Shown here: one piece after another, positions 31,001 through 58,190 of the stretch
Position numbering within the stretch: position 1 is the stretch's first letter
How the letters are laid out: every line of letters begins with the position of its first letter
From: a virus
IMG/VR virus record: IMGVR_UViG_3300042922_000850
Coordinates: 1 to 64,000 of that record
DNA: 64,000 bases
Strand: one strand, 5' to 3'
Made by a program: the position numbers and the translations under genes
The notes under the pieces: model-generated
Told to the model about the DNA's origin: nothing
Database searches by the model: none
Seen by the model: only the letters and a program-made list of their open reading frames with translations

Positions 31001-31999
31001 ATACCGGATATCCTTCTTGCCGTTATCTAAAATGTTTTGAGCGGTTTGAACAAATTCGGTCCAATCTTTTTCTATTTGTTCTAAAATAAAGTCATTATCA
31101 TCATAAACATCTTTAAAGCGCAAATCGTCTTTATCATCTTCCTCTGTTTGGTCTTGAAAAACAGAAAATGTTTTTGTGACTGCGCCTGCGATAATTTTTG
31201 GCGAAAGATAATCTTCTTTCAATCCAAGACTTGCCTGAACTACAGGTATACCGGTTCCGAACTTTGCGTTATCTTTTAAATAATCAAATAACTCAACTCG
31301 CATTTGCATCGGAGCTTTTGGCCCAGGGGCTACACCCATGATGGCAGTATAGATATCACCTATGGTTTTAGGACTTCTTTTCCCGTATTTTTCGAACAGT
31401 TGGTCGGACACGTTGCCGTTACCAAGCATTTTTTTAATGTCGGCATCTTGAAATCCTAGTGCTCGAAGGAAATTAATTCCGTTAAAGTTCTGTTGTTTCC
31501 TGCCTTTAATAGAAACGACAAAGTCATTTGATGCCGGGGAATATTGAATGGTCATTTGCGGAACATATTTACCTGCCGTAAATGAGTTATCCACCATGAT
31601 ATTTGTTTTAATATCATTCATTGCAGAAGTCTTACTCGTATAAATGCCCGGTTTTAATCTCATTTGGCTAAGGATGTTTTTCTCTGTTCCGTTTACGATA
31701 TAAGTGTCTCTCTCAGTAACAATCGGCACAGGAATGAGATGGCGCATTAACCCACTTTTACTAATAATTTCGCCCTTGGCATCTCTGATTACAATCTTAC
31801 CGCCGATATATCCTTCGAGGCTATCGTTCTTAGAATACTTCATCACCAATTGCTTATTGATATCGTCAGCAGCGCTAGGCATAGTGAAATTAATATCTTC
31901 AATGGTAAGTGTTTTTCCGTCTTTCCCCTTGATTGGAGTTGTTCGGTTGATCAGGTCGATTATCGAATTTTTAAGGTTATCTGTTTTTGGCATGGCCAT
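25094..31999 (-). CDS. Fused beta-beta' multisubunit-type RNA polymerase, single polypeptide
   Basis: A 2301-residue protein holding both catalytic subunits of a cellular-type RNA polymerase. The beta part (about 1-1000) has the fork-loop cluster ETNPL...ITQLGEGG (about 360-380), IDPIETPESGNIGL, YNYEDGIVIKRSF and GRHGNKGTITKIL (about 817). A lysine/serine-rich linker (about 1090-1115) leads to the beta' part: RSVIGVDP, ADRPIMLNRQPSLHK-like KDRPIMLNRQPSLHK, the magnesium motif NADFDGDTMAAH (D1528, D1530, D1532), a zinc site (DCKT, then LKCKAVGGVCQLCYG) and the trigger helix QMTMNTFHSGG (about 1950). The N-terminal beta' zinc domain is missing: KIFGEKRTLDERKKWGFVKLAV runs straight through. No alpha or omega subunits are visible. 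It lies downstream of the portal gene, so late expression or virion packaging is possible. Confidence 0.95.
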   Translation of the reverse strand: MAMPKTDNLKNSIIDLINRTTPIKGKDGKTLTIEDINFTMPSAADDINKQLVMKYSKNDSLEGYIGGKIVIRDAKGEIISKSGLMRHLIPVPIVTERDTYIVNGTEKNILSQMRLKPGIYTSKTSAMNDIKTNIMVDNSFTAGKYVPQMTIQYSPASNDFVVSIKGRKQQNFNGINFLRALGFQDADIKKMLGNGNVSDQLFEKYGKRSPKTIGDIYTAIMGVAPGPKAPMQMRVELFDYLKDNAKFGTGIPVVQASLGLKEDYLSPKIIAGAVTKTFSVFQDQTEEDDKDDLRFKDVYDDNDFILEQIEKDWTEFVQTAQNILDNGKKDIRYTDVRTTTKIGQTLSKFMSSSSIVQTPEETNPLFMAGMSKKITQLGEGGLSSDAARNEWSARNLAANSMNRIDPIETPESGNIGLVEHLTQSAIIENRTIKAPVLKVVSGVAKAIPSNEVYLSPDEEYDTVVAFNDSRYITVSGNKLQFTKNKVPARKLGKITEVPISEVKYVDRDSRDVMGYAANLIPFVAHDDGNRALMGANMQKQAIILKNREVPLVGNMMDASKNLTYEKYIGEQYGKPVRSDIAGEVQTIKDGKIVIKGDDGKKYSKNFFEYYPLNQSFINNEVVVKPGDKVKSGDLLAEGWQTKDGSLALGLNAKVAFLPFKGYNYEDGIVIKRSFANRMATEEMDEQTVEISRINKGGRGSSIMSELVGYTSVHEFKNRLDEDGIIKVGEKVKPGDILVATLKPMIREGSSDYEEAILAADKNLNYRFNPIRIESSSYVEGVVKRVTVIDNPDASNKQKIIITLVNSKPLKIGDKISGRHGNKGTITKILDDEEMPILEDNTTPDLLFSPLAVPSRKNVGQVLEVNAGLASEKTGKAYNVMNFDHKEKDRVLQALKDIGYTDGKMKVYLRQKDLDGSIKQIPVENPITAGNMYIMKLKHKADDKIQARYNLETDPSRKSNMPSKKVGSSAGEKHNPQSLGEMEMRALQGHQAVWNILESSTIKSDGGGDAQTRIAMYNAISTGKLDSLDMPATPMSLKVMSDSLKVLGLNVKPLYNGKEVGSFDDVFDNISIQPMKSSEFIKMVGKNAEVKEPKLYTSKDTHGEASKSKKKSETKEDVPVIGGLMDPKIFGEKRTLDERKKWGFVKLAVPLPNPVLMQDSSYNPYVLLTGMKTKELQELTKGKKVLILDPDKYTPFDTMPASVREKHKQDMDEAGLKPGSLVAPEEIEKLNMDGKYILWQAGGEALESIMDKVNVEKELGRAKVELQKAQGDKIDKAYKKMKLLTMLNTNHMEASDLMMRYVPVAPTYLRPVNQTDDKKSYIIDDLNKLYGELIKANNPVKADTEIGDLYQSRDVLSAAKGVGNIYNRLTDLTGHTTRKDIKTKKELKGIKDALGSKEGLIRSEMLSKRVDFSGRSVIGVDPMLKMNEVGIPIDMARQMYKPFIIKGLINDGFASNTIEANKKYKALDEDTKYVIRQVAKDRPIMLNRQPSLHKFSIMAFDPVIKETEDGTVVRSMHLNPLVVEGFNADFDGDTMAAHTAVTERANEEAKLLMKPSDNLINPTDGKMIVNVRHEMVLGIYYLTVNSDKPEGSGVTYSDYRKLRKDYKDGLVKARTKISMGNISNVTAGQMMFNLLLPEKYRNFKQTWGKSEIEKMLRTMYRDGEESGWKEISKIKISSIMDDIKQLGFEAATRSGISIGSSDFKKIEAADAIFDKNLTAAKKDLGDTEAALITGWRNAEEEIETELKAGRILDAENPLQIMMASGARANAGQIRRMMVTAGVGMDINKRLTVPVKSSHFDGLSPEEYWIHGKDSRKGMSDRSVSTSAPGEITREVWSAAQDVLIVEKDCKTREGIYLPISNNTIDGRIAAEDIVGEAGTILVKRNQMITRDIRNRLYKDPTIKQAKVRSPLKCKAVGGVCQLCYGAMPQTIQLPKEGTPVGTLASHAMGEPVMQMTMNTFHSGGTGSGATLGLPRIETILNLGKDKSTPAILAKISGTVTGIEKGPAQDILFINGKAHGVPHIDGKSQPLKVSVGDKVVKGDFLTPGDSEDLENISNKDVVFTNADPKELYKLKASEFDSDTALDYVQNYLTNSMDYAFKKTTSSGSIDRRHEELIIGKMTSKAKVLDSGDSHFMKGDEVDRNALIKWNTENSTPYSVRKISIGNTAAIVGRKSGETYKSRANTVIIAKGEVINEMSLIALRTAGYKEIKVQPRLIVFENQLHSKNTIATHGHSNWLSNLGHEDIMSQLARGATLGQVDKLNDPRSRQMTGKLLNVGEGFDIPADKGNGVATRMFNLFGKIK

Positions 32000-32187: not shown

Positions 32188-34158
32188 TTATTTTAAACTG
32201 TCTCTTCTTGGAGGCAATTTTTCTGGCATCTGCCTCATATCAATTTGAGATTTCTTTTTCATTTCTTCTGACTTTTCTAATTGTTGCATTGCGGTTCTCA
32301 CTTGTTTTTGCATACTATTCGGGAGAGTGGAAATCGGTTTATCTCGATAAGCTTTAGGGAGCTTCATGATTTGAACCACGATATTCTTTACATCTGGGTT
32401 GATGCTACTAAGTGGATCCTCTTCACTCTGCGCATTAGGCGGAGGAGCTGTATTCGCTTGGGCAGCTTCAGTTACGCCTGCTCCGGTTTGCACGTTTGGC
32501 GGTTGTTGCTTAGGAGTAGCAATTGCTTCACCGTTTGGTGGTACACCTGGCTGTTGACCTTCTGGGGCCATCATAGCCGCTGGATCCACACCCATTTCTG
32601 ACTGCACCATCTGCGAAGCGTTTGCCTGATGTGCTTGCAGTACACTGCTGATTTCTACCTGCTTTTGCTGTAATTTGAATTGAATATCCATCTCAGATAA
32701 CTGCATTTCCATACGCTTAATATTTACTTTGCTTTCAAGTTCAACAGCGGCTAATGCTTCACGCTCAAGAGCATCCCTCATTTTATCCGGATCAATGCCT
32801 ATTGTCTTCCACATATATTCGTTAGAGCATTTTCCGGCTCCGTTAAGCTGGATAATTAATTGCTTTTGTTGAACATCATCCTGCATCTTTAAATCCGTCA
32901 TTTTGACAGATACTAGTTGTTCATCATCTTTTTCATTGATCCACTCACCACGAGCCTTTGCCATCCCTTTGACACCAAAGTTCTGCATAAAGTCTTTAAG
33001 TAGAACTCTGTAGGTTATAAATTGGTTTTCCAAAATCTTTAATGATATTGAACTTCCCGAGTAACTTACACCACCAAAAATAAACTCTCTTGGCACGTTC
33101 ATACCAGCAAGAATTTCTTCTTGGATTTGTTGAATTTCAGGAGTTAGGAGCAATGATTTGCCTTGACCGCCAACGCTCAATAAGTTAACCGGCACAGGGG
33201 AAACAACTTTGTAGTTGGGGTCTTTAACAGCTTTCATTAATTCCCCAGCAAAGTTCTTAGCGACAAGGTTCCAATCGGCCTCAGGATTAAATTCCTCTGT
33301 TCGCTGTAGGTAATAAACTCTCATAGGAACAATATGCTCTCTGGCAATTGCTTCTTGTGCTTGCCTTAAGGTATTACGATACATCAATAATTTTAAAACA
33401 TTCGCAACAATGGGTGTTCCCCATACATTGTTATCACCTAAAGAATCTGTGGCTCTGGCAAAATGATAAACATTCTTTGAATTCAAAATAACCATCTTGT
33501 TTTCTAAGACCGCTTTTTTGATAATGTCTGGGATTTTATTATACTCTGCCTTTGGCTTTTTGTTCTTTACAATTCTTGCAATGCTAAATGGAATCTCCCA
33601 TTTATAAACCTTTTCTTGAGTTGTTGGATTATAATCAATGGTCATTTTGGAAGGATCAAGCCTAACCATGTTTTTCCATTCTTTCAGACCCGTCATCTTG
33701 TTTACGGCCATTTCTCCAAAAACAAAACAATTACCATAAAGATGATAGTCGATACCAATCTCAATCAGTAACTTATGAATATTTATATTTTTATGAAATA
33801 CCCTGTCATAAGTTTTTAACCTATCACTGTCCCCGTTATTCGCCTTTTCCTTATCTTCAATATCTTCCAAATAAACTTCAGTGACCGGGAAAGCTGATAG
33901 CGCATTGATAGCTCCCGAAATTAATGGATCAAACATATAGAAGTATTTGCACCAACGGAAGATTTCTTGCGATGTCTCCGGTATTTTTGTATCTGAAAGA
34001 TTAAGAAAAGGTGAGGGATACGGGTCTTGCTCCATGCCTCTGAAATTAGCGATTTTAACCATCTCGACTGCTTTCTCACGTTCCTCTTTGAGTATCTTCT
34101 CTTTTTGAGTTGAAGCGATAGAAACTTGATTTGAATGGTCTTGTGTTTCTTCAGACAT
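32188..34158 (-). CDS. Portal protein
   Basis: A 656-residue protein forming the dodecameric DNA entry ring at one capsid vertex. The body (about 60-420) has typical portal features: YFYMFDPLISGAINALSAFP, DYHLYGNCFVFGEMAVN, the long helix LRQAQEAIAREHIVP, and FIFGGVSYSGSSISLKILENQF, where portals commonly read vPxxllgg. The C-terminus (about 470-656) is Q- and P-rich with coiled-coil parts (MEMQLSEMDIQFKLQQKQ). VKIANFRG near residue 35 fits the shared KxA motif and may be a maturation cut. The ATG at 34158 follows GGCGGTG. Confidence 0.85.
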   Translation of the reverse strand: MSEETQDHSNQVSIASTQKEKILKEEREKAVEMVKIANFRGMEQDPYPSPFLNLSDTKIPETSQEIFRWCKYFYMFDPLISGAINALSAFPVTEVYLEDIEDKEKANNGDSDRLKTYDRVFHKNINIHKLLIEIGIDYHLYGNCFVFGEMAVNKMTGLKEWKNMVRLDPSKMTIDYNPTTQEKVYKWEIPFSIARIVKNKKPKAEYNKIPDIIKKAVLENKMVILNSKNVYHFARATDSLGDNNVWGTPIVANVLKLLMYRNTLRQAQEAIAREHIVPMRVYYLQRTEEFNPEADWNLVAKNFAGELMKAVKDPNYKVVSPVPVNLLSVGGQGKSLLLTPEIQQIQEEILAGMNVPREFIFGGVSYSGSSISLKILENQFITYRVLLKDFMQNFGVKGMAKARGEWINEKDDEQLVSVKMTDLKMQDDVQQKQLIIQLNGAGKCSNEYMWKTIGIDPDKMRDALEREALAAVELESKVNIKRMEMQLSEMDIQFKLQQKQVEISSVLQAHQANASQMVQSEMGVDPAAMMAPEGQQPGVPPNGEAIATPKQQPPNVQTGAGVTEAAQANTAPPPNAQSEEDPLSSINPDVKNIVVQIMKLPKAYRDKPISTLPNSMQKQVRTAMQQLEKSEEMKKKSQIDMRQMPEKLPPRRDSLK

Positions 34159-34184: not shown

Positions 34185-36122
34185 TTATTGATTGTGTAAT
34201 CCTAAATCGGTCAACATGCCGATTAATTCAAATTCCCTTTTGTCTAACACTGTATCAAGCACGACATTTTTGATTACTTGCCGAACAATAATCTCAGAAA
34301 TGTTTTTGTCTATGCCCGAATTTCCAAGAACAGCTCTTAAAAATTCTCCAAGGTTTGTATCCGGTGCTTTAGACAATTGCTCGTAAGCCGCATCCATCAA
34401 CTTTAACGATGTGTTAAAGATAAGTTCGTTCTCATTAATTATATCATTTTTTTCTTGCTCAGTACTAATTAATGCTGTGAAGCGCTTATTTAATTCTGAG
34501 AGCAAAGAATAGTTTAAAAGAGTGGCAAATTGTCGTTCTTCGTCCGTACCGGTAACATTTACTCCCCAGATGTAATTTTGCTTATCGGCCAAAGTTTTTA
34601 CTAAATAATCGTAGACCTCAGGCGAAAAATTATCATACACATTATCGTAAGGAGTTATTCTATTTATCGCATCAAGGCCAAAAACGAAATCTTCCAAATC
34701 CAAGTCCTGGGTCTCTCTTAAAAGAAAATTAACCGGTTTGCCGTTCATCGATCGAATTATTTTTTCAAAAGCATGAGGGCTCGTAAAAACCACATCACTG
34801 TTATTGGCTGCCTTAACAGACAATACCTTATTTAAAGCTATGTCTCCGATAGGCCTTGTTAAAGCAAAATCTTTTTCTATAATGCTTACTAAAGCATGAC
34901 CATCAAAATCAACCCATTCGTATCCATATTTTGCAGTCAGTAATAAAAAATAAACTGCTGGGTGGACATTGTTGTCAACAAAAATATCCTCAGCTTTTAA
35001 TTTTGTTGCGGCTGCTGTTTTTTCTTGCCCAATATTTTGAGAGGGAAATTTCTCGTTTAATCTAGCAATGCCTTTTCTGATTTCCTTTTTAAAGTAATCC
35101 TCAAAAAATGTTACATTTCTTTCTTGAAAATGTTCAAACCCTTCTTCGTTCATAGCCATTACAGATAGCGTTCCGACAAGTTTCCCATCTACAATAAAAA
35201 TTACTCTATCTGGGAAAAAGCCAATACGAACATTATTTTTAAGATAACTCGGGTTCAAATATTTGCCCTGAGCTGAAGATACTCTGTCTTCTTTATTAAT
35301 GAATGGGACCATTTTTAATACGTCTGTAATTGCACCGGCATATTTATCAAAGGGTCTCTCAAAGTTAGCTTCAGATAATACATACTCAATTTCATCATCC
35401 ATACTTTCAATAAGAATCTCGGCAACCTTATCTACAGCAGAGTTTTCTTTTTCAAAAAAATCTTCTGCTGACGAAGCATAGTGGAACAACTCAACATCGG
35501 TCAGATCTTCAAAATCTAAATCGTCAAATGCCTGTTTATTGATAGTTTTCCGTAAGTCCATCTGGTTTTCGACTATTCGTTTTGCAAACTCTTTTTCTGC
35601 AAAACGAATATCAGAATACATTTTATTTAACAAGAGATTTTTGTAATATTGATGGTCTTTGTTCTTCCAAGCTGCATACATATCTTCGTTCATCTCTTCA
35701 ATTTCAATTGTTTCTAATGGAATATCTCTCACCCCGTCTTTAACCACGTACACAGCGCTGATAGGGGTGAAAATAACTCTCATGTTCGAAGACAGATGAT
35801 TCATTTGGTCATAATAATTTTTGTGCTCGAAACCACTAGGCTGACGTCTTGTTGCTGATGGTTGGGCGGCATTTTGATTTAATGCCATTTTTGCGCTTTG
35901 TTTTTTTGCGATGGCGCCCCCAATAATAGCGCCTAAAATAGCGGCCGGTAAAGCTGTAATTCTAAACCCGCCGTTATCACGTTTATCTTCCTGTTCATTT
36001 ATAAGAGGAAAGTCATTGCTTTCCATCGGAATTGCTGCAGGCATCGGTCTGAGCATTGCATTTGGATTTGAAATTGTGCCGTTTGCCGCTTCTTTTGACA
36101 TATCTCGATCTTCTATTTTCAT
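34185..36122 (-). CDS. Large virion-associated protein of unknown function
   Basis: A 645-residue protein immediately upstream of the portal gene. The first ATG (36122) has no clear ribosome site; an ATG at 36101 (MSKEAANGTISNP) is an alternative. A glycine-alanine hydrophobic segment (ITALPAAILGAIIGGAIAKKQ) lies near residue 60. The rest is alpha/beta with motif copies VDKVAEIL, PFDKYAGAI and QEKTAAAT. The C-terminal 150 residues are helical. No family is recognised; the motif copies and position suggest an inner head or ejected protein. Confidence 0.6.
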   Translation of the reverse strand: MKIEDRDMSKEAANGTISNPNAMLRPMPAAIPMESNDFPLINEQEDKRDNGGFRITALPAAILGAIIGGAIAKKQSAKMALNQNAAQPSATRRQPSGFEHKNYYDQMNHLSSNMRVIFTPISAVYVVKDGVRDIPLETIEIEEMNEDMYAAWKNKDHQYYKNLLLNKMYSDIRFAEKEFAKRIVENQMDLRKTINKQAFDDLDFEDLTDVELFHYASSAEDFFEKENSAVDKVAEILIESMDDEIEYVLSEANFERPFDKYAGAITDVLKMVPFINKEDRVSSAQGKYLNPSYLKNNVRIGFFPDRVIFIVDGKLVGTLSVMAMNEEGFEHFQERNVTFFEDYFKKEIRKGIARLNEKFPSQNIGQEKTAAATKLKAEDIFVDNNVHPAVYFLLLTAKYGYEWVDFDGHALVSIIEKDFALTRPIGDIALNKVLSVKAANNSDVVFTSPHAFEKIIRSMNGKPVNFLLRETQDLDLEDFVFGLDAINRITPYDNVYDNFSPEVYDYLVKTLADKQNYIWGVNVTGTDEERQFATLLNYSLLSELNKRFTALISTEQEKNDIINENELIFNTSLKLMDAAYEQLSKAPDTNLGEFLRAVLGNSGIDKNISEIIVRQVIKNVVLDTVLDKREFELIGMLTDLGLHNQ

Positions 36123-47795: not shown

Positions 47796-48590
47796 CTATG
47801 CTTCTATTGTCTCAGAAGCACCCTTTAATATTTTTGCTTTCTCGGCGCTTCTGATACCTTCATAAGCATCACGCGGGCCCTGATTTTTCATTTTACTTAA
47901 ATAGATCTTTCTGGTCTCGTCGTCCGTGTATTTCTCTGTGCCAAAATCACTATTTACTAATTTATATTGGTCATCGAGTTTTTTATTAGCAACTAATGTA
48001 CCGGGGATAAGTCCTATTATGGCACCGTTTTTTACAGCTGTCGGCATATGACCGCCTCTCAGTCCTCCTATGGTTGCTCCGACAAGCGCTCCGGCTCCAG
48101 CGCCCACAGCCATGCCGCTAGCATCTTTAAGTCGTTTTTTCATCGGATAGTTTTCCTTCAAATATTCATCGTACTCTTTGGTTGTCGCTTTGCGATTTTT
48201 CCTAAGTTCTTTTCTCTGCTCAAAACTTAACATAGCTTCTTTTTCAAGACTGGATAGGTTCTGTTCGAATCCTCCAAGAATATTCAGAGCCATTTTCTCA
48301 ACATACTCTTCCGCTGGCATTTCTTCTTCTGCCATCTTTGTGATCTCGTTGGTTAAAACTTCAGCAATTGCTTGACTAAAAAGATAGCCATCGTTAGCAA
48401 CTTTTACAAAAACAGCGTCCGCAAAGTCGCTAGAATACTCAGGATCGGTCTTAACAGAACTGCAGATATTTGCACTGTACTCTGCCACTTTCTCCATGCT
48501 GATATTTGAGGAAAATCCAGAATTAATTTCTTCCTCGGCTTTCTTCTCAAATATTTTATCTAATAGTTCCGATGCTTTTACTTCAATCAT
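47796..48590 (-). CDS. KxA-motif glycine-zipper protein, 264 residues
   Basis: ATG at 48590 behind GAAGGGAG. The first 120 residues carry six motif copies (LDKIFEKKAEE, SMEKVAEYS, VFVKVAND, EITKMAEEE, EYVEKMALN, SLEKEAMLS), after which a mature domain starts with SFEQRKELRKNRK. It then has a glycine zipper (GMAVGAGAGALVGATIGGLRGG and IIGLIPGTLVA, about 160-205). This looks like a cleaved N-terminal packaging region followed by a membrane-active ejection protein. Family not recognised. Confidence 0.6.
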   Translation of the reverse strand: MIEVKASELLDKIFEKKAEEEINSGFSSNISMEKVAEYSANICSSVKTDPEYSSDFADAVFVKVANDGYLFSQAIAEVLTNEITKMAEEEMPAEEYVEKMALNILGGFEQNLSSLEKEAMLSFEQRKELRKNRKATTKEYDEYLKENYPMKKRLKDASGMAVGAGAGALVGATIGGLRGGHMPTAVKNGAIIGLIPGTLVANKKLDDQYKLVNSDFGTEKYTDDETRKIYLSKMKNQGPRDAYEGIRSAEKAKILKGASETIEA

Positions 48591-48620: not shown

Positions 48621-49145
48621 TTATGCGATATCAACAACATCGCCCAATTTATAGCTACGTGATACTTTGCTGCGCAGAGTACTATTCGGGTTTAAAACAT
48701 CACCTTTCACTCTCACTGGTTGAATTTTCTTAGGGGATAAGCCTGCCACAGTATTTGTTACACCTTTGTCTGCAATGCCTATGTTCGTAACCGGCCCGGT
48801 TATTTGTTTTGGTGGTTGTGCAATAACAGAGGATACATCTTTTGTAACATTCGATGCGGGCACCTTCGCTTTAATTGAGCTCCCTATCATGCCACCAACT
48901 AAAGCACCTTGCAACGCACCACTAAGTTTATTACTTTTTAAATTGCCATTTTCATCAGTTGACGGTTTTGCGGTTAAAGCCCCTCCGACTGCACCTAACC
49001 CAGCTCCGGTCAAAGCCTTTTTTGTGACTGACTTCGCAGCAAAACTTTTAACTGCATTCGCAAGAACAGCTCCGGCGACAGCAATCTTTTCTGTTTCCTC
49101 TGCCATTTTATAAATACAATCTTCGTAATACGCTATTTTATCCAT
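48621..49145 (-). CDS. DKIAYYED-tagged glycine-zipper protein, 174 residues
   Basis: ATG at 49145 behind AAAGGAG. It starts with MDKIAYYEDCIYKMAEETEK, the longest form of the recurring virion motif. Two glycine-alanine segments follow (ALTGAGLGAVGGALTA and LSGALQGALVGGMIGSS, about 44-90), and then a valine/proline-rich tail. The tag and zipper suggest a small capsid-packaged membrane protein. No family recognised. Confidence 0.65.
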   Translation of the reverse strand: MDKIAYYEDCIYKMAEETEKIAVAGAVLANAVKSFAAKSVTKKALTGAGLGAVGGALTAKPSTDENGNLKSNKLSGALQGALVGGMIGSSIKAKVPASNVTKDVSSVIAQPPKQITGPVTNIGIADKGVTNTVAGLSPKKIQPVRVKGDVLNPNSTLRSKVSRSYKLGDVVDIA

Positions 49146-49482: not shown

Positions 49483-49544
49483 TTATTTAAGTGTTGTGGA
49501 AATACAAAAATAAAACTATCCGAGCATGGGAAGGGGAAATAGCA

Positions 49545-50150
49545 ATGAGCGAAAAGGCAGATAGAAACAGGGATCTTATCATAAGGGCAAAGGAGGGTGA
49601 CGCGAAGGCACTGAATGAACTCTTCAGAATTAACGAAGGATTTAGCAGAAGCGTAGCAAAAAGATACTTAAACACTGGGATAGAATTTGAAGAACTGGTT
49701 AGCATGTGTAAATTAGGGATGGTAAAAGCCTACAATTCTTTTGATCTGGAGAAAAATATTTCATTTATAACTTATGCGTCACCCTGTATGATGAACGAAA
49801 TTAGAATGGTTCTTAGACAAAAATCAACTCATACCGTAGACGCATTATCCGTTTCCATAGAGGCAGAAATAGATACGAATTTAGACGGGCACCCCATAAG
49901 TTATAGCGATGTTTTAGCTGACGACAGGATTGAAAGTAACGTTTGTGATTTATGTGTTCAGAGACAAGAGATTTTAGATATGAAAAAAATTATAGCCGAA
50001 TTGCCAGAAAAGGAACGCCTAATTATTACGAACATATGGTTTTACGGTAAAAAACAGAGAGAGGTATCAAATATTTTAGGGATATCTCAACCGCAAATTT
50101 GCAGACTGGAAAAGAAGGCTCTTCAAAAAATAAAAAGAAAATTAGAATAA
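49545..50150 (+). CDS. Sigma-70 family factor, SigE/SigK-like
   Basis: A 201-residue RNA polymerase sigma factor; start ATG 49545 (MSEKADRNRDLIIRAKEGD) behind AAGGGG. Region 2 is RSVAKRYLNTGIEFEELVSM then VKAYNSFDLEKNISFITYAS, with MMNEIRMVLRQ. Region 4 is LPEKERLIITNIWFYGKKQREVSNILGISQPQICRLEKKA. The stretch between (VSIEAEIDTNLDGHPISYSD, then VLADD) resembles the region 3 linker of the sporulation mother-cell factors SigE and SigK. It may direct the host polymerase, or the phage's own core, to phage promoters. It is the only sigma gene in the window. Confidence 0.88.
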   Translation: MSEKADRNRDLIIRAKEGDAKALNELFRINEGFSRSVAKRYLNTGIEFEELVSMCKLGMVKAYNSFDLEKNISFITYASPCMMNEIRMVLRQKSTHTVDALSVSIEAEIDTNLDGHPISYSDVLADDRIESNVCDLCVQRQEILDMKKIIAELPEKERLIITNIWFYGKKQREVSNILGISQPQICRLEKKALQKIKRKLE

Positions 50151-50368: not shown

Positions 50369-50400
50369 AACACAGGGGCATATGCCCCTGTGTTTTATTT
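50363..50400. terminator. Bidirectional terminator
   Basis: Perfect 38-bp palindrome: AAATAAAACACAGGGGCAT and complement. It serves the 49-residue gene (plus) and the 287-residue gene (minus), overlapping both stop regions. Confidence 0.9.
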
Positions 50401-51258
50401 ATCTGTTTTATTTAATTCATTGATCGTATCTTTAAAGATTGGTCTATTCTCCTTCACTACCGATCTCTGGAGCTTATTCCCTAGGTTCTTATTGTAAACC
50501 CCGCTCTCTCCATAATTTAATCCAAGTTCCTTGTATCCATCAAGTTCTCCGGTGACACCCCTCATTTTTTTCATATATTCTTTTGTGGCTTTTGGCGCTA
50601 TTGCGGTATCAGCGGATTCATTTAAAATAACCTTTGGACTAATATGGGAGCTGGTGTCAGCCATAGGTACTCGCTGATCTTTATAAGCGATGGAAGACCT
50701 TTTACTTTTGAGGAGGTTTGATCCATGGTTTATCTCGTTTGCTTCGTGGCGATTGATAATTGCTTCCGTAAACTTTCTGTCAGTGGGGTTTTCAAAAGAC
50801 TTTAGATCGGCCCCCATTCCCTTTAATGTCTTCGTCAACTTATTAATGTCGCCCTTGTGAGCAAATCCACCACCATGTGCCCCAAGCATTGACTGAAAGC
50901 CTCCACCAGCTTCAAAAGCATCTTTCAGGTCTTGTCTATAGTCTTCTGGGTCTCCTCCAACCGATTTAATTTGATCCATAAAAAATTTCCTCGATTTTAC
51001 AGAACTAATAGCTCTATCAGCCATGTCATCAGGTGTAAACCCAGAAACGGATTTTGCACCCTTGCTCTTTAAGATATTTTCAGTCCCCTTGTTTAACCCG
51101 GCCAACTCTTTCTCATGATTTAAAACGCCACTACTCATTAGCCGATTAACCGATTTGTCGGAAAGACCGCCTACAACCTTTTTCCATGCTCTTGCCATGG
51201 CGCTTTTCTGCATTGCCTCTTTGTAAATTATGTCTTCGTAATATGCTACTTTATCCAT
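50395..51258 (-). CDS. DKVAYYED-tagged putative cargo protein, 287 residues
   Basis: ATG at 51258 behind AGGAGG. It starts MDKVAYYEDIIYKEAMQKSA, the recurring tag. The body is alpha/beta, glycine-rich in the middle (FEAGGGFQSMLGAHGGGFAH), with RKFTEAIINRHEANEINHG, a conserved-looking RHEANEINHG segment whose H, E and H might bind metal. No family is recognised with confidence. Tag and operon position suggest an enzyme packaged in the head. Confidence 0.6.
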   Translation of the reverse strand: MDKVAYYEDIIYKEAMQKSAMARAWKKVVGGLSDKSVNRLMSSGVLNHEKELAGLNKGTENILKSKGAKSVSGFTPDDMADRAISSVKSRKFFMDQIKSVGGDPEDYRQDLKDAFEAGGGFQSMLGAHGGGFAHKGDINKLTKTLKGMGADLKSFENPTDRKFTEAIINRHEANEINHGSNLLKSKRSSIAYKDQRVPMADTSSHISPKVILNESADTAIAPKATKEYMKKMRGVTGELDGYKELGLNYGESGVYNKNLGNKLQRSVVKENRPIFKDTINELNKTDK

Positions 51259-51271
51259 AGAACCTCCTGCT

Positions 51272-53920
51272 TTATTCTTTATCGTGAATATTTTTCGCTA
51301 TCACAGCTCCACCGGCAGCAACTCCACCAATACCAAGTAAGGATAATCCCATACCTTTGCCAAATCGCTTAGGATTATTTTTGATATAATCTAAAATTTC
51401 TTTGCCGCCTAACTTTTTGTAATTCTTACTATCTTTAAATACTTCTGGCCCAACGCTTCCTTCAAAGACAGCGGTATTTTTACGCCCAATATTATTATAA
51501 TTCATGCGATACAATGATTTAATATTATCTGCGTTGGGATCCAATTTCCTCACTTCGGACAAATATTCACTAAAATCTCTGGTTCCTCTTAGCTCCGGAT
51601 TATCTACTTCTTTGAGTTTCCATGAGGGAACAGATGCCTTTAACGTCTTTCTCTTTTTAGCCTCTTCTTGAATTTTTTTCGCTTGTTCAATCGGGTCAGA
51701 GAACACCCAACCAGCAGGGTTAGTTTTCATCGCTTCTCTTTGAGCGTAAACATTACCCACACTGTCTGCTACCATCTTTTTCCTACCAAAGTATACTTTA
51801 TTCGCCTGTTGCTCTTTGGATAGTCGTACTTGACTTGTAATATTATCCTCATCAAGAGCCTTAGAAGCATCGAGGCCGCGTTCTAAAATACTATCGACAT
51901 TGTTTCTGTGAGTGTTATGATACATCTTTTCTCTTCCTGTCAGATTTCCACGGTCAAGTTGATGCTTAGTTACTGCTGCACCCGTGATAGCGGTAGCGGC
52001 AGCCACAGCGTTCTCGTTATCATTATCTTCGTCTTTTTTTGCCGCTTTATAAATTCCCTCTTCATACATTGCGATTTTATCAATGTATGCTGCCGTCTTA
52101 TCAGCACCTCTTAACTCACTCTTAGATTTTTGTGCACCGCCAGTATAAGTTCCTTTATACACAGGAACTTCCTCCATTAACAACAGCTTAGATGCCTCCA
52201 TGCGGTGATGTCCATCAAAAAGAATTTTCTTCCCAGGAGTTTGAGGACGAATACCATTTAGTTGGTTAACTATAATGAACGGCTCCACTTTCCCCTTATC
52301 TTTTTGAATACCTTCAGCAATGCTAAGGACCTTCTCTTGCTTTATAGGCTTATTAATGCCCTGTAAGTTCTTAATTTTCTCCGTGGTCTTTTCCCACTTA
52401 TAATTCTTTGCCATAGCAAGAGCACCATCTACATTTGGCGTCTTATATTCATGAGAAGTTGCCATCATCGTAGCAACCTTGCGGGCGATGTCGTCAGAAA
52501 GAGCGGCTTCAATTGCGGGAATCTTACCATCCTTACCAACTTGGTCGTCTTCTCTGGCAGATGCAGCTTTTTCAAAGTTTGAAGATTTCTTACACTTTAA
52601 TTGTTCCATGATATGTCCTGGCGAAACCTTTTTTAAAGCTACGTCATAGTGCTTTGCCATATCTCTGAAGGTTTTAAAATGTTCTTCCGATATAATATCA
52701 ACATCCTTATCAGTGTAGTGTTCAATATCATTATCGTAACGAAGGGGTTTAAAACTTCCCTTTAATTTATACATAGAACACGGTTTATCCAAGTTTACCG
52801 CATCGGTATATTCCAGCCTAGTTCCCTTGTAATTACTTTCATCAGGGACATCTTTGTTACTGGTCTCTACCACAAACCTTGCGTTCCCATCGTTCCAACG
52901 AGCTCCAAACGCCGCCGCAAAAGAAGGATCCTTGGAGACAAAGATCACCTTACCCTTGTTGTTACCGGAAGTATCCTCAGATTTCCGAAACTTTTTAATA
53001 TCCTGAACTCTGGATGCGTGATACATAAATTGTTCTTCGGCTGTTTTAAGGATTTCTTCTTCATACATCTCAGCCTTCTTTAACCACGATTTAAAGCCTC
53101 TTACTTTTTCAGGGAGCGTACTTGCGTCCCCATCAAAATTAATGCCATTATCGTCAACGTAGGCGATTGCCGGAGGTTTTTTATCGGTAACATCATCGAC
53201 TTCGATATCATTCTCTTGCAGGTATTTTTTAATTGCATCAATCCCACCTGGTTCGGCGCAACGGGTGGACACGACGATAACCTTGTGGTCTTTGCGTAAG
53301 TCCTGAATAGCTTCTTTAATCCCCGGCACAGGTTCGTCAGGGATAATATTGTTACCCTCCCACCCGCTTTTATAAGAGTGGATAACGCCATCAAAGTCGA
53401 ATACGATGTTGGGCTTCTCTTCAGAAGCTTTCTTTTCCAAGTTATTTTTATAAATCTGACGCACCTCATTGATTACGTCATTCTCTAATCGCTCGGTCGA
53501 GCCTTTTGTTTTTGAGTAGTTCTCTTGGTAGTCCTTGGTATTCTTGGCAATATTATCGCCAATTTTGGATCCTACAGCCATTCCTGCAGTCATTCCGGCC
53601 ATAGGGAGAACAAAACCAAGACCTGCGCCGGGATATTTTTTCTTTGAAAGAAACATCGGGGTCATTCCAATGGCTGTTCCGGGGAGTAACCCAACAGCCA
53701 TCCCTTTAGTTTTTGCATCTTGCGTTTTAAGATTTAATTGCTTTTCTTTTTTGGAATTTGTATAATCTGGATGACTTTCAATTAATTCTTGGGCTTTATT
53801 GTACAGAGGATCATAATCATTCGGATCACCATCTGTCATATCATAAATTTCATTGTAAATTTTTCGACTGATTAATGCCTCTTTATAAATTTTTTGTTCA
53901 AGTTCCGTTGTCTTATCCAT
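51272..53920 (-). CDS. Multidomain putative cargo polyprotein (zipper, HAD, ART-like, ParB-like, ART-like)
   Basis: An 882-residue protein; ATG 53920 behind GGGAGGG. Domains in order: tag MDKTTELEQKIYKEA and glycine-zipper segments (72-125); a HAD phosphatase-like domain (171-268) with NIVFDFDGVIHSY and AYVDDNGINF; a module starting MYHASRVQDIKKF (299-395) that resembles ADP-ribosyltransferase-like folds; a ParB/sulfiredoxin-like domain with ILFDGHHRMEASKLL (566-580); a second module starting MYHNTHRNNVDSILERGLD (666-825); and a C-terminal hydrophobic segment (SLLGIGGVAAGGAVIAK). Motif copies sit at the boundaries: NLEKKASEE (160-168), KKAEMYEEEILKTAEEQ (281-297), NFEKAASAR (448-456) and DKIAMYEEGIYKAAKK (614-629). 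HAD and ParB-like calls are firm; the ART-like calls are tentative. Confidence 0.75.
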   Translation of the reverse strand: MDKTTELEQKIYKEALISRKIYNEIYDMTDGDPNDYDPLYNKAQELIESHPDYTNSKKEKQLNLKTQDAKTKGMAVGLLPGTAIGMTPMFLSKKKYPGAGLGFVLPMAGMTAGMAVGSKIGDNIAKNTKDYQENYSKTKGSTERLENDVINEVRQIYKNNLEKKASEEKPNIVFDFDGVIHSYKSGWEGNNIIPDEPVPGIKEAIQDLRKDHKVIVVSTRCAEPGGIDAIKKYLQENDIEVDDVTDKKPPAIAYVDDNGINFDGDASTLPEKVRGFKSWLKKAEMYEEEILKTAEEQFMYHASRVQDIKKFRKSEDTSGNNKGKVIFVSKDPSFAAAFGARWNDGNARFVVETSNKDVPDESNYKGTRLEYTDAVNLDKPCSMYKLKGSFKPLRYDNDIEHYTDKDVDIISEEHFKTFRDMAKHYDVALKKVSPGHIMEQLKCKKSSNFEKAASAREDDQVGKDGKIPAIEAALSDDIARKVATMMATSHEYKTPNVDGALAMAKNYKWEKTTEKIKNLQGINKPIKQEKVLSIAEGIQKDKGKVEPFIIVNQLNGIRPQTPGKKILFDGHHRMEASKLLLMEEVPVYKGTYTGGAQKSKSELRGADKTAAYIDKIAMYEEGIYKAAKKDEDNDNENAVAAATAITGAAVTKHQLDRGNLTGREKMYHNTHRNNVDSILERGLDASKALDEDNITSQVRLSKEQQANKVYFGRKKMVADSVGNVYAQREAMKTNPAGWVFSDPIEQAKKIQEEAKKRKTLKASVPSWKLKEVDNPELRGTRDFSEYLSEVRKLDPNADNIKSLYRMNYNNIGRKNTAVFEGSVGPEVFKDSKNYKKLGGKEILDYIKNNPKRFGKGMGLSLLGIGGVAAGGAVIAKNIHDKE

Positions 53921-55751
53921 TTTTACCCTCCCGGCTTTTCTTTAATAAATCAAAGAGCAATTGATTTTGTTTGTCTTTGTGTTGAGCAACTTCATAAATA
54001 AATTCATCTGGCGTCCGGTATTGTGATTTAAAAATACCGAGTGTTTTTGGCATTGTAGCCATGTAGCGATTTACATTTACAGACCGGTCTTTAGGCTCCC
54101 TGTGGCTTAACCCACCACTACGAATACCTCGTGCCTCCATTTGTTTCATCTTCTCTGGATTAAAATGAGGGTCAAGAACACCTTCCCATGTGGTATCGTT
54201 TAAAGAAATACCTTCTCCGCCGGCGCCGCTAATCAGCATGACCTTCTTTGCCCTGTTGTTAAAATCAACAACATCCTTTTGGCGGCTCTCTTCAGTTACA
54301 CCTTTGTTACCTTTCCCAATAAACTTTCCATACTCAATCCCACGGTCTTTTAAACCCGCTTCAAGCGTATCTGTGCCGCCGTTAATTAAATGACTGAAAA
54401 GAAGTGCCTGACCGTCTGGAGTATTCTCTAAATGAGCCTCTAGGTCGTCTAAGAGTTTCTTGGTCTTAGGGGTAATCTTTGCGCTTTCTTCCAAAGAAAT
54501 ACCAGGATGAACTGAACCAACGCTGTTCATCAATTTTCTTTCCTCAATCATTTGATTATATGCTTTTGCAATTTCCTCATTTTTAAAGGTTTCCAGACGT
54601 TTTGCAACAATCATCTGCTTTATCTTGGGATTGTCAGAAAGCATATCTTTGTATATTTTAGCCTGCTTCTTACTAATTGGTACCTTTATGATATTGGTTT
54701 TCTTTTCAGGCATATTTGCGACATCTTTGATATCATCATTATCTAAATAATCAATATACTTGGATAATTTACTTGCCAATTCCTTCTTATAATTAAATCC
54801 AACGACAGGAATTCTCTTTTCATTTGTTCCTTGGTATTGCCTATCAGTACTTCGCTTCAGGTACCGTTTGGAAAACTCATCTTTGCTTTCTCCGAGATTA
54901 TGATTGCCATTTGATGCAACATCGACAAGAGGCAATACATCAGCAATTTCATTAGACACTACTGAACCGGTTAAGCCGATATAGTTTTTGTACAGTTTTC
55001 GGCTAGATTTCAATGTTTCCGTAGTAAGAGTATCTTCGTTTTTACCACGATGGCTCTCATCCGTTATGACTGTATCTGCTCCGCTTTCTTTTAAATATCG
55101 TTCAGGATCGCTACGAAACATTTCATAAGAAATAACATTATAATCAGAATTTGGGTCGACGTTGTGATGCGTTCCTTTTTTTATTTCGGTTTTGTTCCCG
55201 ATTACATTTACTGTGCTATCAGTAAATTTACTAACCCCTTGTTCTGCAAAGTTATTTCTAAGAGAAGCGGGGACAATTATAAGCGCTTTGTTTGCCTTCC
55301 CCTCTGCCTTTAGTTTCTCGAACCTAGCAATACCGGTAAGCGTTTTTCCACTACCAACGCCGTGCGCGTAGATTACACTGTCTCCTGGGCGATTAACAGA
55401 CTTTTCTTGATGCGGATATAATTTTACATCCGATTTCAGTGCAGCTTCTTTATAAATCATATCTTCATACATTGCTATCTTATCCATCTGAATACTCCAT
55501 TTCGGTTCATAGATTTGTTTGGTGGATTTAACACTGCGAAGGTTCTTTATTTTAAACCTACGGATGCCACCTTTTTCCGGATCGTATCCCCAGAAATCGC
55601 TACCATCTATTTTATAAGGTTCTACGTTCCGAAAAGAGATGTTGCCTTTTTTATCACAGTACTTTATCTGCACCATGTTCATATTATTGCCACCGAGTTT
55701 AAGTTTCTCTATGTGTTGTAAATCACGTTTTCCGAATTCTTTTTCCGGCAA
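53913..55751 (-). CDS. WYL-like domain fused to SNF2-type helicase
   Basis: A 612-residue protein starting at TTG 55751 behind AGAGGGTG. Residues 25-88 form the WYL-like domain paralogous to the 80-residue protein at 36386. Then comes the tag MDKIAMYEDMIYKEAALK (89-106), whose ATG at 55487 has a GGAG seven bases upstream and could serve as an internal start. The rest is a superfamily 2 helicase: LYPHQEKSV, Walker A AHGVGSGKT (129-137), ITDESHRGK (DEAH-type box, 229-237), SGAGGEGISLND and QMEARGIRSGG (motif VI). SNF2 proteins translocate on duplex DNA and displace proteins. The gene starts the cargo operon. Confidence 0.8.
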   Translation of the reverse strand: MPEKEFGKRDLQHIEKLKLGGNNMNMVQIKYCDKKGNISFRNVEPYKIDGSDFWGYDPEKGGIRRFKIKNLRSVKSTKQIYEPKWSIQMDKIAMYEDMIYKEAALKSDVKLYPHQEKSVNRPGDSVIYAHGVGSGKTLTGIARFEKLKAEGKANKALIIVPASLRNNFAEQGVSKFTDSTVNVIGNKTEIKKGTHHNVDPNSDYNVISYEMFRSDPERYLKESGADTVITDESHRGKNEDTLTTETLKSSRKLYKNYIGLTGSVVSNEIADVLPLVDVASNGNHNLGESKDEFSKRYLKRSTDRQYQGTNEKRIPVVGFNYKKELASKLSKYIDYLDNDDIKDVANMPEKKTNIIKVPISKKQAKIYKDMLSDNPKIKQMIVAKRLETFKNEEIAKAYNQMIEERKLMNSVGSVHPGISLEESAKITPKTKKLLDDLEAHLENTPDGQALLFSHLINGGTDTLEAGLKDRGIEYGKFIGKGNKGVTEESRQKDVVDFNNRAKKVMLISGAGGEGISLNDTTWEGVLDPHFNPEKMKQMEARGIRSGGLSHREPKDRSVNVNRYMATMPKTLGIFKSQYRTPDEFIYEVAQHKDKQNQLLFDLLKKSREGKNG

Positions 55752-55902: not shown

Positions 55903-56265
55903 ATGTCGGAAGATCACAAAGCTGATCATTCCACGATTTGTTTTTGGTGTGGTACCGTGGTAGAAAAAAAGAAGATTATTAACACAGGCGATAAACACCC
56001 CCTAATGGTAATTGATTATGCGCCATGCGAGCAATGTATTGAGAAAAGAAGTAAAGGTGTAACATTTATCGAGTTCTCAGAAATCCCAAATGTTGTGGGA
56101 CAGGCGGAATTACAACCTGGTATATATCCGACAGGATCGTGGGCAGTTATGACTGAGGAAGCGGTAAGAAAATTTATGCGTCCAGAGGCGGCGCAAGATG
56201 CAATCCAAAAAAGTTTTTGTTTTTTGGACAAAGCTACTTGGAATTTATTAGGATTTAACTTATAA
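55903..56265 (+). CDS. Zinc-ribbon protein, 120 residues
   Basis: ATG at 55903 behind AAAGGAG. ICFWCGTVVEKKKI and CEQCIEKRSKG form a CxxC...CxxC zinc ribbon in the N-terminal half. The C-terminal half is alpha/beta (YPTGSWAVMTEEAVRKFM). No family recognised. It is the first gene of the rightward regulatory cluster. Confidence 0.65.
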   Translation: MSEDHKADHSTICFWCGTVVEKKKIINTGDKHPLMVIDYAPCEQCIEKRSKGVTFIEFSEIPNVVGQAELQPGIYPTGSWAVMTEEAVRKFMRPEAAQDAIQKSFCFLDKATWNLLGFNL

Positions 56266-56285
56266 TAATAGGAGGACAAACTAAA

Positions 56286-56528
56286 ATGAAGAATACTGGA
56301 ATGGTAAGAAAATTGGATGACCTTGGTAGAGTTACTTTGCCAATGGAATTAAGAAGAACTATGGATATAGCAAAGCGCGATGCTCTGGAGATTTTTACAG
56401 AAGGGGAAAGTATTATTCTTCGTAAGTACGAATCAAAGAAATGCGTGTTCTGCGGAAAAACTAATGATATCGAGGAATTTAAAAATAAATTCGTATGCAG
56501 AGAATGCAAAGAAGGTTTGAAAAAGTAA
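56286..56528 (+). CDS. AbrB/SpoVT-type transition-state regulator
   Basis: An 80-residue protein. MVRKLDDLGRVTLPMELRRT, then DALEIFTEGESIILRKY, is the swapped-hairpin AbrB DNA-binding domain, in which the LGRVxLPxExR segment contacts DNA. The C-terminal 30 residues have CVFCGKTND and CRECKEG, a zinc ribbon also found in clostridial AbrB-like regulators. AbrB proteins repress stationary-phase and sporulation genes. The ATG at 56286 follows ATAGGAGG. Confidence 0.9.
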   Translation: MKNTGMVRKLDDLGRVTLPMELRRTMDIAKRDALEIFTEGESIILRKYESKKCVFCGKTNDIEEFKNKFVCRECKEGLKK

Positions 56529-56554
56529 CTTAATAATTGGGGGTGTAGTAACAA

Positions 56555-56842
56555 TTGAATCGCAATATTAACAAGCGGACCGATGAAATACACAGAAGAG
56601 CAATCGAAATAGCAGAATATGTTATCGAAACAGGATGCACCGTACGCCAAGCAGCAAAACGTTTTGGTGTGAGTAAAAGCACAATTCACAGAGATTTAAC
56701 AAAAACATTAATTGCAATGCATGAATATAGTCTTCATGATAATGCTGCCGTTATCATATCTGTGAATAAAGCGGAACGACATGTTCGTGGTGGTCAAGCA
56801 ACAAAGGCTCGTTGGAGAGATTTCTCAAAAGACGGCAAATAA
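56555..56842 (+). CDS. spoIIID: SpoIIID-like sporulation regulator
   Basis: A 95-residue protein starting at TTG 56555 behind GGGGGTG. RRAIEIAEYVIETGCTVRQA, then AKRFGVSKSTIHRDLTKTL and VNKAERHVRGGQATKARW match the host SpoIIID regulator closely, including the helix-turn-helix and the C-terminal basic helix. In spore formers SpoIIID acts in the mother cell to switch genes of the SigE regulon. A phage copy next to AbrB, with a SigE/SigK-like sigma elsewhere, suggests control of host sporulation or re-use of these factors for phage genes. Confidence 0.88.
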   Translation: MNRNINKRTDEIHRRAIEIAEYVIETGCTVRQAAKRFGVSKSTIHRDLTKTLIAMHEYSLHDNAAVIISVNKAERHVRGGQATKARWRDFSKDGK

Positions 56843-56878
56843 ACCTTTTGTGGTAATGTCTACATAATTAAAACATCA

Positions 56879-56914
56879 AATAGATGCGCTGGTAATCAAC
56901 GTGTCTATTTTTTT
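56879..56914 (+). terminator. Terminator after the SpoIIID-like gene
   Basis: AATAGATGCG and CGTGTCTATT pair over 10 positions (two G-T wobbles), 11-base loop, followed by a T run. Confidence 0.75.
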
Positions 56915-56946
56915 ATTTATCTTTTTTTAAAAGAAAGGAAGAAAAC

Positions 56947-57498
56947 ATGGGAAACATAGTTAATATTTATGCTGATGGAGCAAGAAGAGGAAAAGAGCCA
57001 AACTTTATCGGAGGATGGGGAACTATATTGGAAGCCCAAGGCCAAAGAAAAGAAATTTGGGGCGGACTAGTCGGAGCTTCTAATAACCAGATGGAGATGA
57101 CTGCAGTTCTCGAAGGTCTAAAAGCCATCAAAACAAACGAAGCTAGTATTAAGGTATTTTCTGACAGCGCCTACATAGTAAACTGCTTCAGAGACAAATG
57201 GTATGAAACTTGGTTAAAGAACGGATGGATGACCTCACAAAAGAAACCAGTAGAGAACAAACAAATGTGGCTTGAAATACTTAAACTGGTGTCCAAATTT
57301 ACATCGGTTACTTTCTTTCATATCGATGGACATATCAGTTTAAAGAAGCCGGATGAAGTGGCAGAGTTCCATAAGAAATTTAATCAAAAGAATAACGTAA
57401 AATTCTCACTAGAAGAATTTATTCACGTCGCAGAAAACAATGCGCGAGTAGATGTCTTAGCAGGGCAAGGCGCAGAAGATATTAAAAAATCCCTATAA
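56947..57498 (+). CDS. rnhA: Ribonuclease HI
   Basis: A 183-residue enzyme that cuts RNA in RNA-DNA hybrids. The catalytic residues are visible: D in NIYADGARRG, E in NNQMEMTAVLEGL, D in KVFSDSAYIVN and the final D in NARVDVLAGQ, with H in HIDGHISL. About 30 residues (KKPDEVAEFHKKFNQKNN and following) are inserted between the histidine loop and the last aspartate, longer than in cellular RNase HI. Likely removes replication primers or R-loops. ATG at 56947 behind AAAGGAAG. Confidence 0.88.
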   Translation: MGNIVNIYADGARRGKEPNFIGGWGTILEAQGQRKEIWGGLVGASNNQMEMTAVLEGLKAIKTNEASIKVFSDSAYIVNCFRDKWYETWLKNGWMTSQKKPVENKQMWLEILKLVSKFTSVTFFHIDGHISLKKPDEVAEFHKKFNQKNNVKFSLEEFIHVAENNARVDVLAGQGAEDIKKSL

Positions 57499-57515
57499 TT
57501 TAAAGAGGTGATGAT

Positions 57516-58190
57516 ATGTCCCGTAATACATTGGTAAAACAAAATCAAAGTGCTATTGCTTCTCGTGACCATCGTGCCGAAGCAATAGCGTTCCTTGAAC
57601 AATTAATAATCGAAAAGAATAATTTCTCCGAGGAAAAACATCGTTATCATGTTGAAACAGCTAAAATGGTGTACGACGAAACATTACAATATACAACGGA
57701 AAAGGCGGGGCGTATACCTACTTTAAATGAAATCTTATCAAAAATGTATGAGTTTAACTACAAGATTTTATGGGAACTATCTACCTACGATCTGTTAAAT
57801 GGACTTGGGGAATATGGGTACAGCGACCAATTAAGTCCTGATGAACGTTATTTTTTATCAGAAAACGATTGCATTGAAGAGATATTTGAACATTGGGAAA
57901 ATTATTTGTCTATGGAATTATGTTTCAACCCACAAGAGTACCTCGGTGAATTATTATGTGAAAGTAATCTTAGCTACTATGATGATATGAATTTGCAATA
58001 CAGGCTATTAACTTTATATGATCATGCAGTGTGCGTTAATGACTGCCAAAATCTATTACTTCCCTCTTGGCATTATCAAAGTGCCGCAAGAGGGAGTGTG
58101 GCCGAAGACGCAGATTATATTATGCGTCTTCGGTTTTTAAGCGAAGAAATCAAAGAAATCAATTATGAGGAGGAAAATGATAATGAGTAA
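57516..58190 (+). CDS. Unknown protein, 224 residues
   Basis: ATG at 57516 behind AAAGAGGTG. Acidic, mostly helical, with many aromatic residues (ELSTYDLLNGLGEYGYSDQL). No motif recognised. It overlaps the next gene by eight bases and carries that gene's ribosome site GGAGG in its last codons, so the two are coupled. Confidence 0.65.
   Translation: MSRNTLVKQNQSAIASRDHRAEAIAFLEQLIIEKNNFSEEKHRYHVETAKMVYDETLQYTTEKAGRIPTLNEILSKMYEFNYKILWELSTYDLLNGLGEYGYSDQLSPDERYFLSENDCIEEIFEHWENYLSMELCFNPQEYLGELLCESNLSYYDDMNLQYRLLTLYDHAVCVNDCQNLLLPSWHYQSAARGSVAEDADYIMRLRFLSEEIKEINYEEENDNE

Follow-up and report, generated by a model that had tools for sequence, protein, structure and literature searches.

How does a phage make use of a single open reading frame (ORF) in which several unrelated modules follow one another and the same short motif recurs at their borders? 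We address this question for an 882-residue ORF, here called P0001, in the IMG/VR record IMGVR_UViG_3300042922_000850. The record comprises 166,758 bases, and the whole stretch that was analysed, referred to as the window, covers its positions 1–64,000. The phage is contractile-tailed, with a tail sheath, portal, major capsid protein, head maturation protease, and fused β–β′ RNA polymerase. Among annotated phage records, the closest capsid proteins belong to Bacillus phage G (26% identity) and to two more phages of very large size. A genome bin with the label Clostridia bacterium SKW48 contains the relative L039 (JAOAHC010000014.1), whose capsid protein shows 77% identity, and this label may hint at the host. 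The polymerase is a 2301-residue ORF (25094–31999, minus strand) that joins Rpb2 and Rpb1 (β–β′) in one frame; it shows 41–51% identity to its counterparts in the phages G001 and G002, and distant long matches occur in some Vibrio and Salmonella phage records.

P0001 spans positions 51272–53920 on the minus strand (ATG at 53920, stop at 51272; 98.8 kDa), and a ribosome-binding-like sequence, GGGAGGG, is located upstream of its start. As the earlier note described, this is one open frame with modules joined by a recurring motif, and all the motif copies quoted there were found. The core of the motif is hydrophobic-x-Lys-x-Ala. Module 1 (residues 1–165; 53426–53920, minus strand, as are all features in this paragraph) consists of an N-terminal tag with the predicted cleavage site IYKEA (residues 11–15; 53876–53890), a helical segment, and a glycine-rich hydrophobic zipper-like segment, and closes with the predicted site LEKKA (residues 161–165; 53426–53440). 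Module 2 (residues 166–283; 53072–53425) is HAD-family phosphatase-like and closes with the predicted site WLKKA (residues 279–283; 53072–53086), which was absent from the earlier motif list; the next predicted site, ILKTA (residues 290–294; 53039–53053), lies within the internal tag EMYEEEILKTA. The MYHAS module, module 3 (residues 295–453; 52562–53038), closes with the predicted site FEKAA (residues 449–453; 52562–52576). Module 4 (residues 454–617; 52070–52561) is ParB/sulfiredoxin-like and contains FDGHHRMEA. The internal double tag IDKIA-MYEEGIYKAA (residues 613–627; 52040–52084) provides two predicted sites, IDKIA (613–617) and IYKAA (623–627), and is followed by module 5 (residues 628–882; 51275–52039), which comprises the MYHNT module and a glycine-rich hydrophobic C-terminal tail. 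The membrane-like tail had been counted as a module of its own, but tail and MYHNT are regarded here as one module because they are colinear in two relatives and no motif lies between them. The seven core motifs in P0001 exceed the 2.55 expected from composition only modestly (p = 0.016). All seven are located outside the module cores, although the cores, drawn by the analyst from the ends of homology, make up 68% of the chain (p about 3e-4).

The identities of the modules are known to different degrees. The HAD assignment is supported by matches to phrog_1238 and phrog_23773 (E about 1e-18), by the DFDG, STR, K, and DD motifs (DxD, S/T, K, DD class), which are conserved in the alignment, and by a confident AlphaFold2 (AF2) fold (pLDDT mostly 72–93); a Foldseek search returned a weak match to phage AfhF (9iqw, E = 3e-3). 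The ParB-like assignment of module 4 also held: the ortholog in G002 matches ParB_N with E = 0.0025, Foldseek gives ParB, Noc, and sulfiredoxin structures (E about 4e-4), and the GHHR-type motif is conserved. A ParB/sulfiredoxin identity is therefore supported by a weak sequence match together with a consistent fold match. The two modules proposed to be ADP-ribosyltransferase (ART)-like fared differently. MYHNT gave sub-threshold matches to KptA (E = 0.021), DarT (0.11), and a DarT1 structure (0.4), and the weak KptA/DarT/PARP matches centre on the YHNT..N..IL..GL stretch; these matches are only suggestive of an ART. The AF2 model of the MYHNT module has a pLDDT of 32. For MYHAS, an ART identity is unsupported: no Pfam match and no useful structure match were found, and the AF2 confidence of this region in the larger model is <40. 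Structure prediction by module, which had been proposed as a check, gave a confident fold for HAD and low-confidence models for MYHAS and MYHNT, which were set aside; in module 1, AF2 predicts helices with partial confidence. P0001 has no match in PADLOC or NCBIfam, and no peptidase match in Pfam, PHROGs, or NCBIfam. Elsewhere, a 461-residue ORF of G002 (56188–57573, minus strand; L024:18188–19573) resembles, by eye, a WGR domain with a PARP catalytic domain.

The genes around P0001 carry similar tags. A SNF2-family helicase with a WYL-like domain upstream and the internal tag MDKIAMYEDMIYKEA is encoded at 53913–55751 (minus strand), and its stop overlaps the start of P0001. This internal double tag could be a second start, because a possible ribosome-binding site precedes its Met. 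The helicase resembles those of defence and anti-restriction systems, a likeness that would suit early action on entry and proves nothing. Downstream, also on the minus strand, are a single-module cargo gene with the tag MDKVAYYEDIIYKEA (50395–51258), a single-module glycine-zipper cargo gene with the tag MDKIAYYEDCIYKMA (48621–49145), and a glycine-zipper-like gene with seven core motifs (47796–48590; p = 4.2e-5). A sigma-factor-like ORF, recognised by eye, lies between the cargo genes on the opposite strand (49491–50150, plus strand). A matrix scan seeded from gene-start tags (MDKIAYYEDCIYKMA and similar) found strong copies at several ORF starts and inside P0001; its scores are not independent because the seeds were drawn from the same genomes. 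Twelve copies of the exact double tag, in which two core sites are ten residues apart, are spread over three phages; four are internal to ORFs, among them the copy at residue 613 of P0001, and the other eight lie at or close to ORF starts. The tag differs among phages (YEExIYKxA here, YKEEIVKMA in G001, MEKISMEKIA in G002, and YKEQIEKQA in G004) around a constant core, and some sites are imperfect or missing: the ParB protein of G002 starts with MEKISLEKV, and that of G004 has no N-terminal tag. Across these genes, the putative tags at gene starts and those at module borders resemble each other in sequence. In G001, an ORF at 145767–146912 (minus strand) contains three mutually similar segments, each beside a YxEEMYKxA-type tag.

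As a whole query, P0001 found no relatives in IMG/VR, and annotated phage records matched only its HAD module; relatives were gathered via the neighbouring helicase, capsid, and protease. Their comparison lends good support to the proposals that separate cargo genes were joined by the same motif and that modules are swapped between related phages: the modules occur alone, in other orders, or with other partners, and in one case inserted in a head protein. The ParB module, in the middle of P0001, stands alone in G002 and comes first in a 527-residue ORF of G004. In L073 (3786–6287), it is located inside a homologue of the head protein encoded at window 34185–36122, framed by core motifs, with LLKAA and IEKGA in front and EKTA behind; segment clustering links ParB to a head protein by way of this insertion. 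MYHAS, which follows HAD and precedes ParB here, has a counterpart with 61–66% identity in G004, where it comes after ParB and a small THRAC module. HAD in G004 belongs to an ORF of its own with a different partner, whereas MYHNT opens a three-module ORF in G001 and stands almost alone in G004. In G001, the SNF2 helicase has the THRAC module as a C-terminal extension, and the SNF2 gene carries different C-terminal modules behind a phage-specific tag in G001 and G002. The protein encoded at 50395–51258 in the window recurs in G002 as the second module of a 451-residue ORF, behind an internal tag. Altogether, tag-separated multi-module ORFs are found in three other phages (496 and 800 residues in G001, 451 in G002, and 527 and 382 in G004). 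At the sequence level, there is good support for a polyprotein organisation and for the shuffling of cassettes. In the more distant L114 and L117, ParB-like proteins recognised by eye (L114:3787–4764 and L117:4074–5075) have LIKIA near both ends.

Where the core motif concentrates was analysed over all 1049 ORFs of eight relatives' genomes or fragments, without prior choice of genes. It was Bonferroni-significant in 12 ORFs, led by the head protease, whereas none of the others among 400 comparable patterns of residue pairs in the same frame reached more than two. Five of the 12 encode head proteases, two of them identical (G004 and G006), and not all of the 12 are independent because the set includes near-duplicate phages. 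The others are a glycine-zipper gene from the cargo region and conserved ORFs with no assigned function, which are mostly situated among the head genes. The motif was again the top pattern in L114, L115, and L117 (protease 48–53% identical), distant relatives that came to light only after it had been defined: 99 sites were found where 29.3 would be expected (z = 12.9), and the runner-up pattern had z = 4.4. In hand-picked head and cargo gene sets of three phages, K.A is about 1.65-fold over expectation, and KA, K..A, R.A, E.A, and K.S show no rise. In the remaining genes, 71 core motifs were seen versus 56.7 expected in G000 and 75 versus 44.8 in G001; being short and present in other genes too, the motif cannot suffice for cutting. 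A logo of 299 sites in analyst-assigned gene sets shows Ser at P1′ (3.3-fold) and Glu at P4 (4.0-fold). Tyr at P9 is present in 42% of cargo sites versus 6% of head-protein sites (both sets analyst-assigned), which suggests a cargo-specific part beside the cut site, comparable to the arrangement in the capsid targeting sequence of T4.

The leading gene, an 822-residue ORF (10475–12943, minus strand), encodes a head maturation protease joined to a region rich in the motif; the ORF and all seven orthologs match the PHROG family of this name (phrog_18299). The ORF has 11 core-motif sites (p = 1.1e-5), and the protease ORFs of L114, L115, and L117 have 11, 14, and 13, respectively. Core motifs flank the protease core on both sides, LLKTA (12866–12880, minus strand) on the N-terminal and LEKVA|S (12272–12286, minus strand) on the C-terminal flank. 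K24-x-A26 and K222-x-A224-S225 in these flanks are invariant in seven orthologs with otherwise variable linkers, and Lys-x-Ala occurs on both flanks in 10 of the 10 orthologs examined, including three distant ones. His84 and Ser135 are also invariant and would suit a serine protease as candidate active-site residues. An unnamed gene of phage G, gp19 (L120:16840–17742), is by eye a homologue of the head protease with Lys-x-Ala on both flanks. The sites at the ends of gp19 read LVKTA, VVKIA, and LEKVA|S. Over the approximately 300 kb of the 497-kb phage G genome that were examined, the core motif was not the top pattern, and no strong enrichment was seen outside gp19. Candidate maturation sites are also present in the portal N-terminus (MVKIA, 34048–34062, minus strand) and in the N-arm of the major capsid protein (LEKIA, 8141–8155, minus strand); the latter is weak evidence because its stretch is generally conserved. 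The head proteases of T4, phiKZ, and 201phi2-1 cut after Glu. In SPN3US, gp245 is reported to cut after AXE with Ser favoured at P1′ (PMC10052503). Since the site logo, with Ser at P1′ and Glu at P4, parallels the style of gp245, the cut in the core motif is predicted to occur after Ala.

Here, we propose that P0001 is a cargo polyprotein that is directed into the prohead and cut after Ala by the head protease, and that its pieces are ejected with the DNA; we assign this reading a probability of roughly three in four. The tag, (MDKIA)-x-Y-E-E-x-(IYKxA), would serve two purposes: its tyrosine and acidic stretch would take the chain into the prohead core, and its hydrophobic-x-Lys-x-Ala core would be cut after Ala by the protease. 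This would release a glycine-zipper piece (16.7 kDa), HAD (13.1 kDa), MYHAS (18.3 kDa), the ParB/sulfiredoxin-like piece (18.1 kDa), and MYHNT with its membrane-type tail (28.3 kDa), and would also free the N-terminal tag and two excised peptides of 10–11 residues. Ejected alongside the DNA, the pieces would act early in infection. The gene may have formed when cargo genes, each with a tag of its own, were fused; with these tags, every module would remain usable wherever it is placed. Cleavage, packaging, ejection, and the biochemical roles are the parts of this reading that we infer. The earlier idea that the chain is cut apart in the head is supported indirectly by the motif, which is found on either side of the protease core and is over-represented in the head and cargo genes and not in the rest; the cut itself is a prediction, and head-protease cleavage is the best explanation of the motif distribution. 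That the pieces are delivered host-targeting enzymes would be a reasonable reading by precedent.

The chain might instead remain whole when it is packaged or used, as a polyvalent protein of the beads-on-a-string type; the motif would then be an uncut linker, flexible or helical, or a peptide that binds the scaffold. Unrelated domains are known to share one chain in polyvalent proteins, the virion RNA polymerase of N4 is packaged unprocessed (PMC5512222), and the cargo-specific Tyr at P9 is not common to head proteins. We nevertheless regard intact use as unlikely: the core also lies in the portal and other head proteins and on the protease flanks, whose linkers vary except for the constant K and A, and a module in the middle of a head protein, as in L073, would be hard to use uncut. 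The motif could also be a targeting signal only, with processing by another enzyme or an internal metallopeptidase, as proposed for P1 DdrB; Iyer et al. 2017 (PMC5512222) suggest zincin-like self-processing for polyvalent proteins. This appears improbable, as P0001 matches no peptidase family in Pfam, PHROGs, or NCBIfam and the enrichment peaks in the gene for the head protease and in a small number of further conserved ORFs. That the ORF is an artefact of assembly or gene fusion could be considered for a record from an uncultivated virus without an isolate, but the comparable ORFs of three other phages make this very improbable. Returning to the cargo polyprotein, we consider a broader statement likely, if less firmly held: in a myovirus clade with a capsid distantly related to that of phage G, a head protease with a predicted new specificity, hydrophobic-x-Lys-x-Ala with the cut after Ala, may free several functional effectors from cargo polyproteins, and any module framed by sites could be delivered, even inside a structural head protein.

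If the cleavage is true, the predicted cargo of every phage in the group, including many modules without an assigned function, could be read off the genome by a simple sequence rule, and a head protease with cuts after Ala rather than Glu would be defined. It would also show concretely how phages can gather, shuffle, and deliver early-acting proteins; the same was proposed earlier for polyvalent proteins, where direct evidence on processing is scarce. A laboratory test is possible because phage G is cultured and its homologous protease gp19 has the same flanking sites.

Our search of open-licence papers found no report of a head protease freeing several modules from one cargo chain. The closest known systems are the capsid targeting sequences of T4 and the class of polyvalent proteins described by Iyer et al. 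2017. Polyvalent proteins join unrelated domains in a single phage polypeptide, and ParB-like, ART, and SWI2/SNF2 helicase domains are represented in the class; they are predicted to be injected with DNA, and their processing has been proposed to occur via an embedded zincin-like metallopeptidase, which is common and not universal (PMC5512222). P0001 likewise holds disparate domains, HAD and ParB/sulfiredoxin, plus two further conserved modules, but no zincin-like metallopeptidase was detected in it and its linkers match the head-protease motif. P1 DdrB and DarA are proteolytically processed and incorporated into the head, and DdrB has a ParB-like domain; unlike here, no repeated tag between interchangeable modules is described for them. 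For SPN3US gp245 and phiKZ, a short P3-x-P1 motif (AXE), a P1′ Ser preference, self-processing, and ejection-protein substrates are comparable with the system proposed here (PMC10052503, PMC5694885), whereas the cuts reported in the available text of these papers remove propeptides, after Glu, and multi-module release from one chain is not reported there. The T4 capsid targeting sequence is a short N-terminal tag with separate targeting and processing residues, found on the unrelated, fast-changing injected proteins IPI–III and Alt, and Alt is cut at both ends (PMC9026906). The present phages similarly place one common tag on unrelated proteins; T4 uses one protein per tag and gene and cuts after Glu, whereas here the tags also stand between modules and the cut is predicted after Ala.
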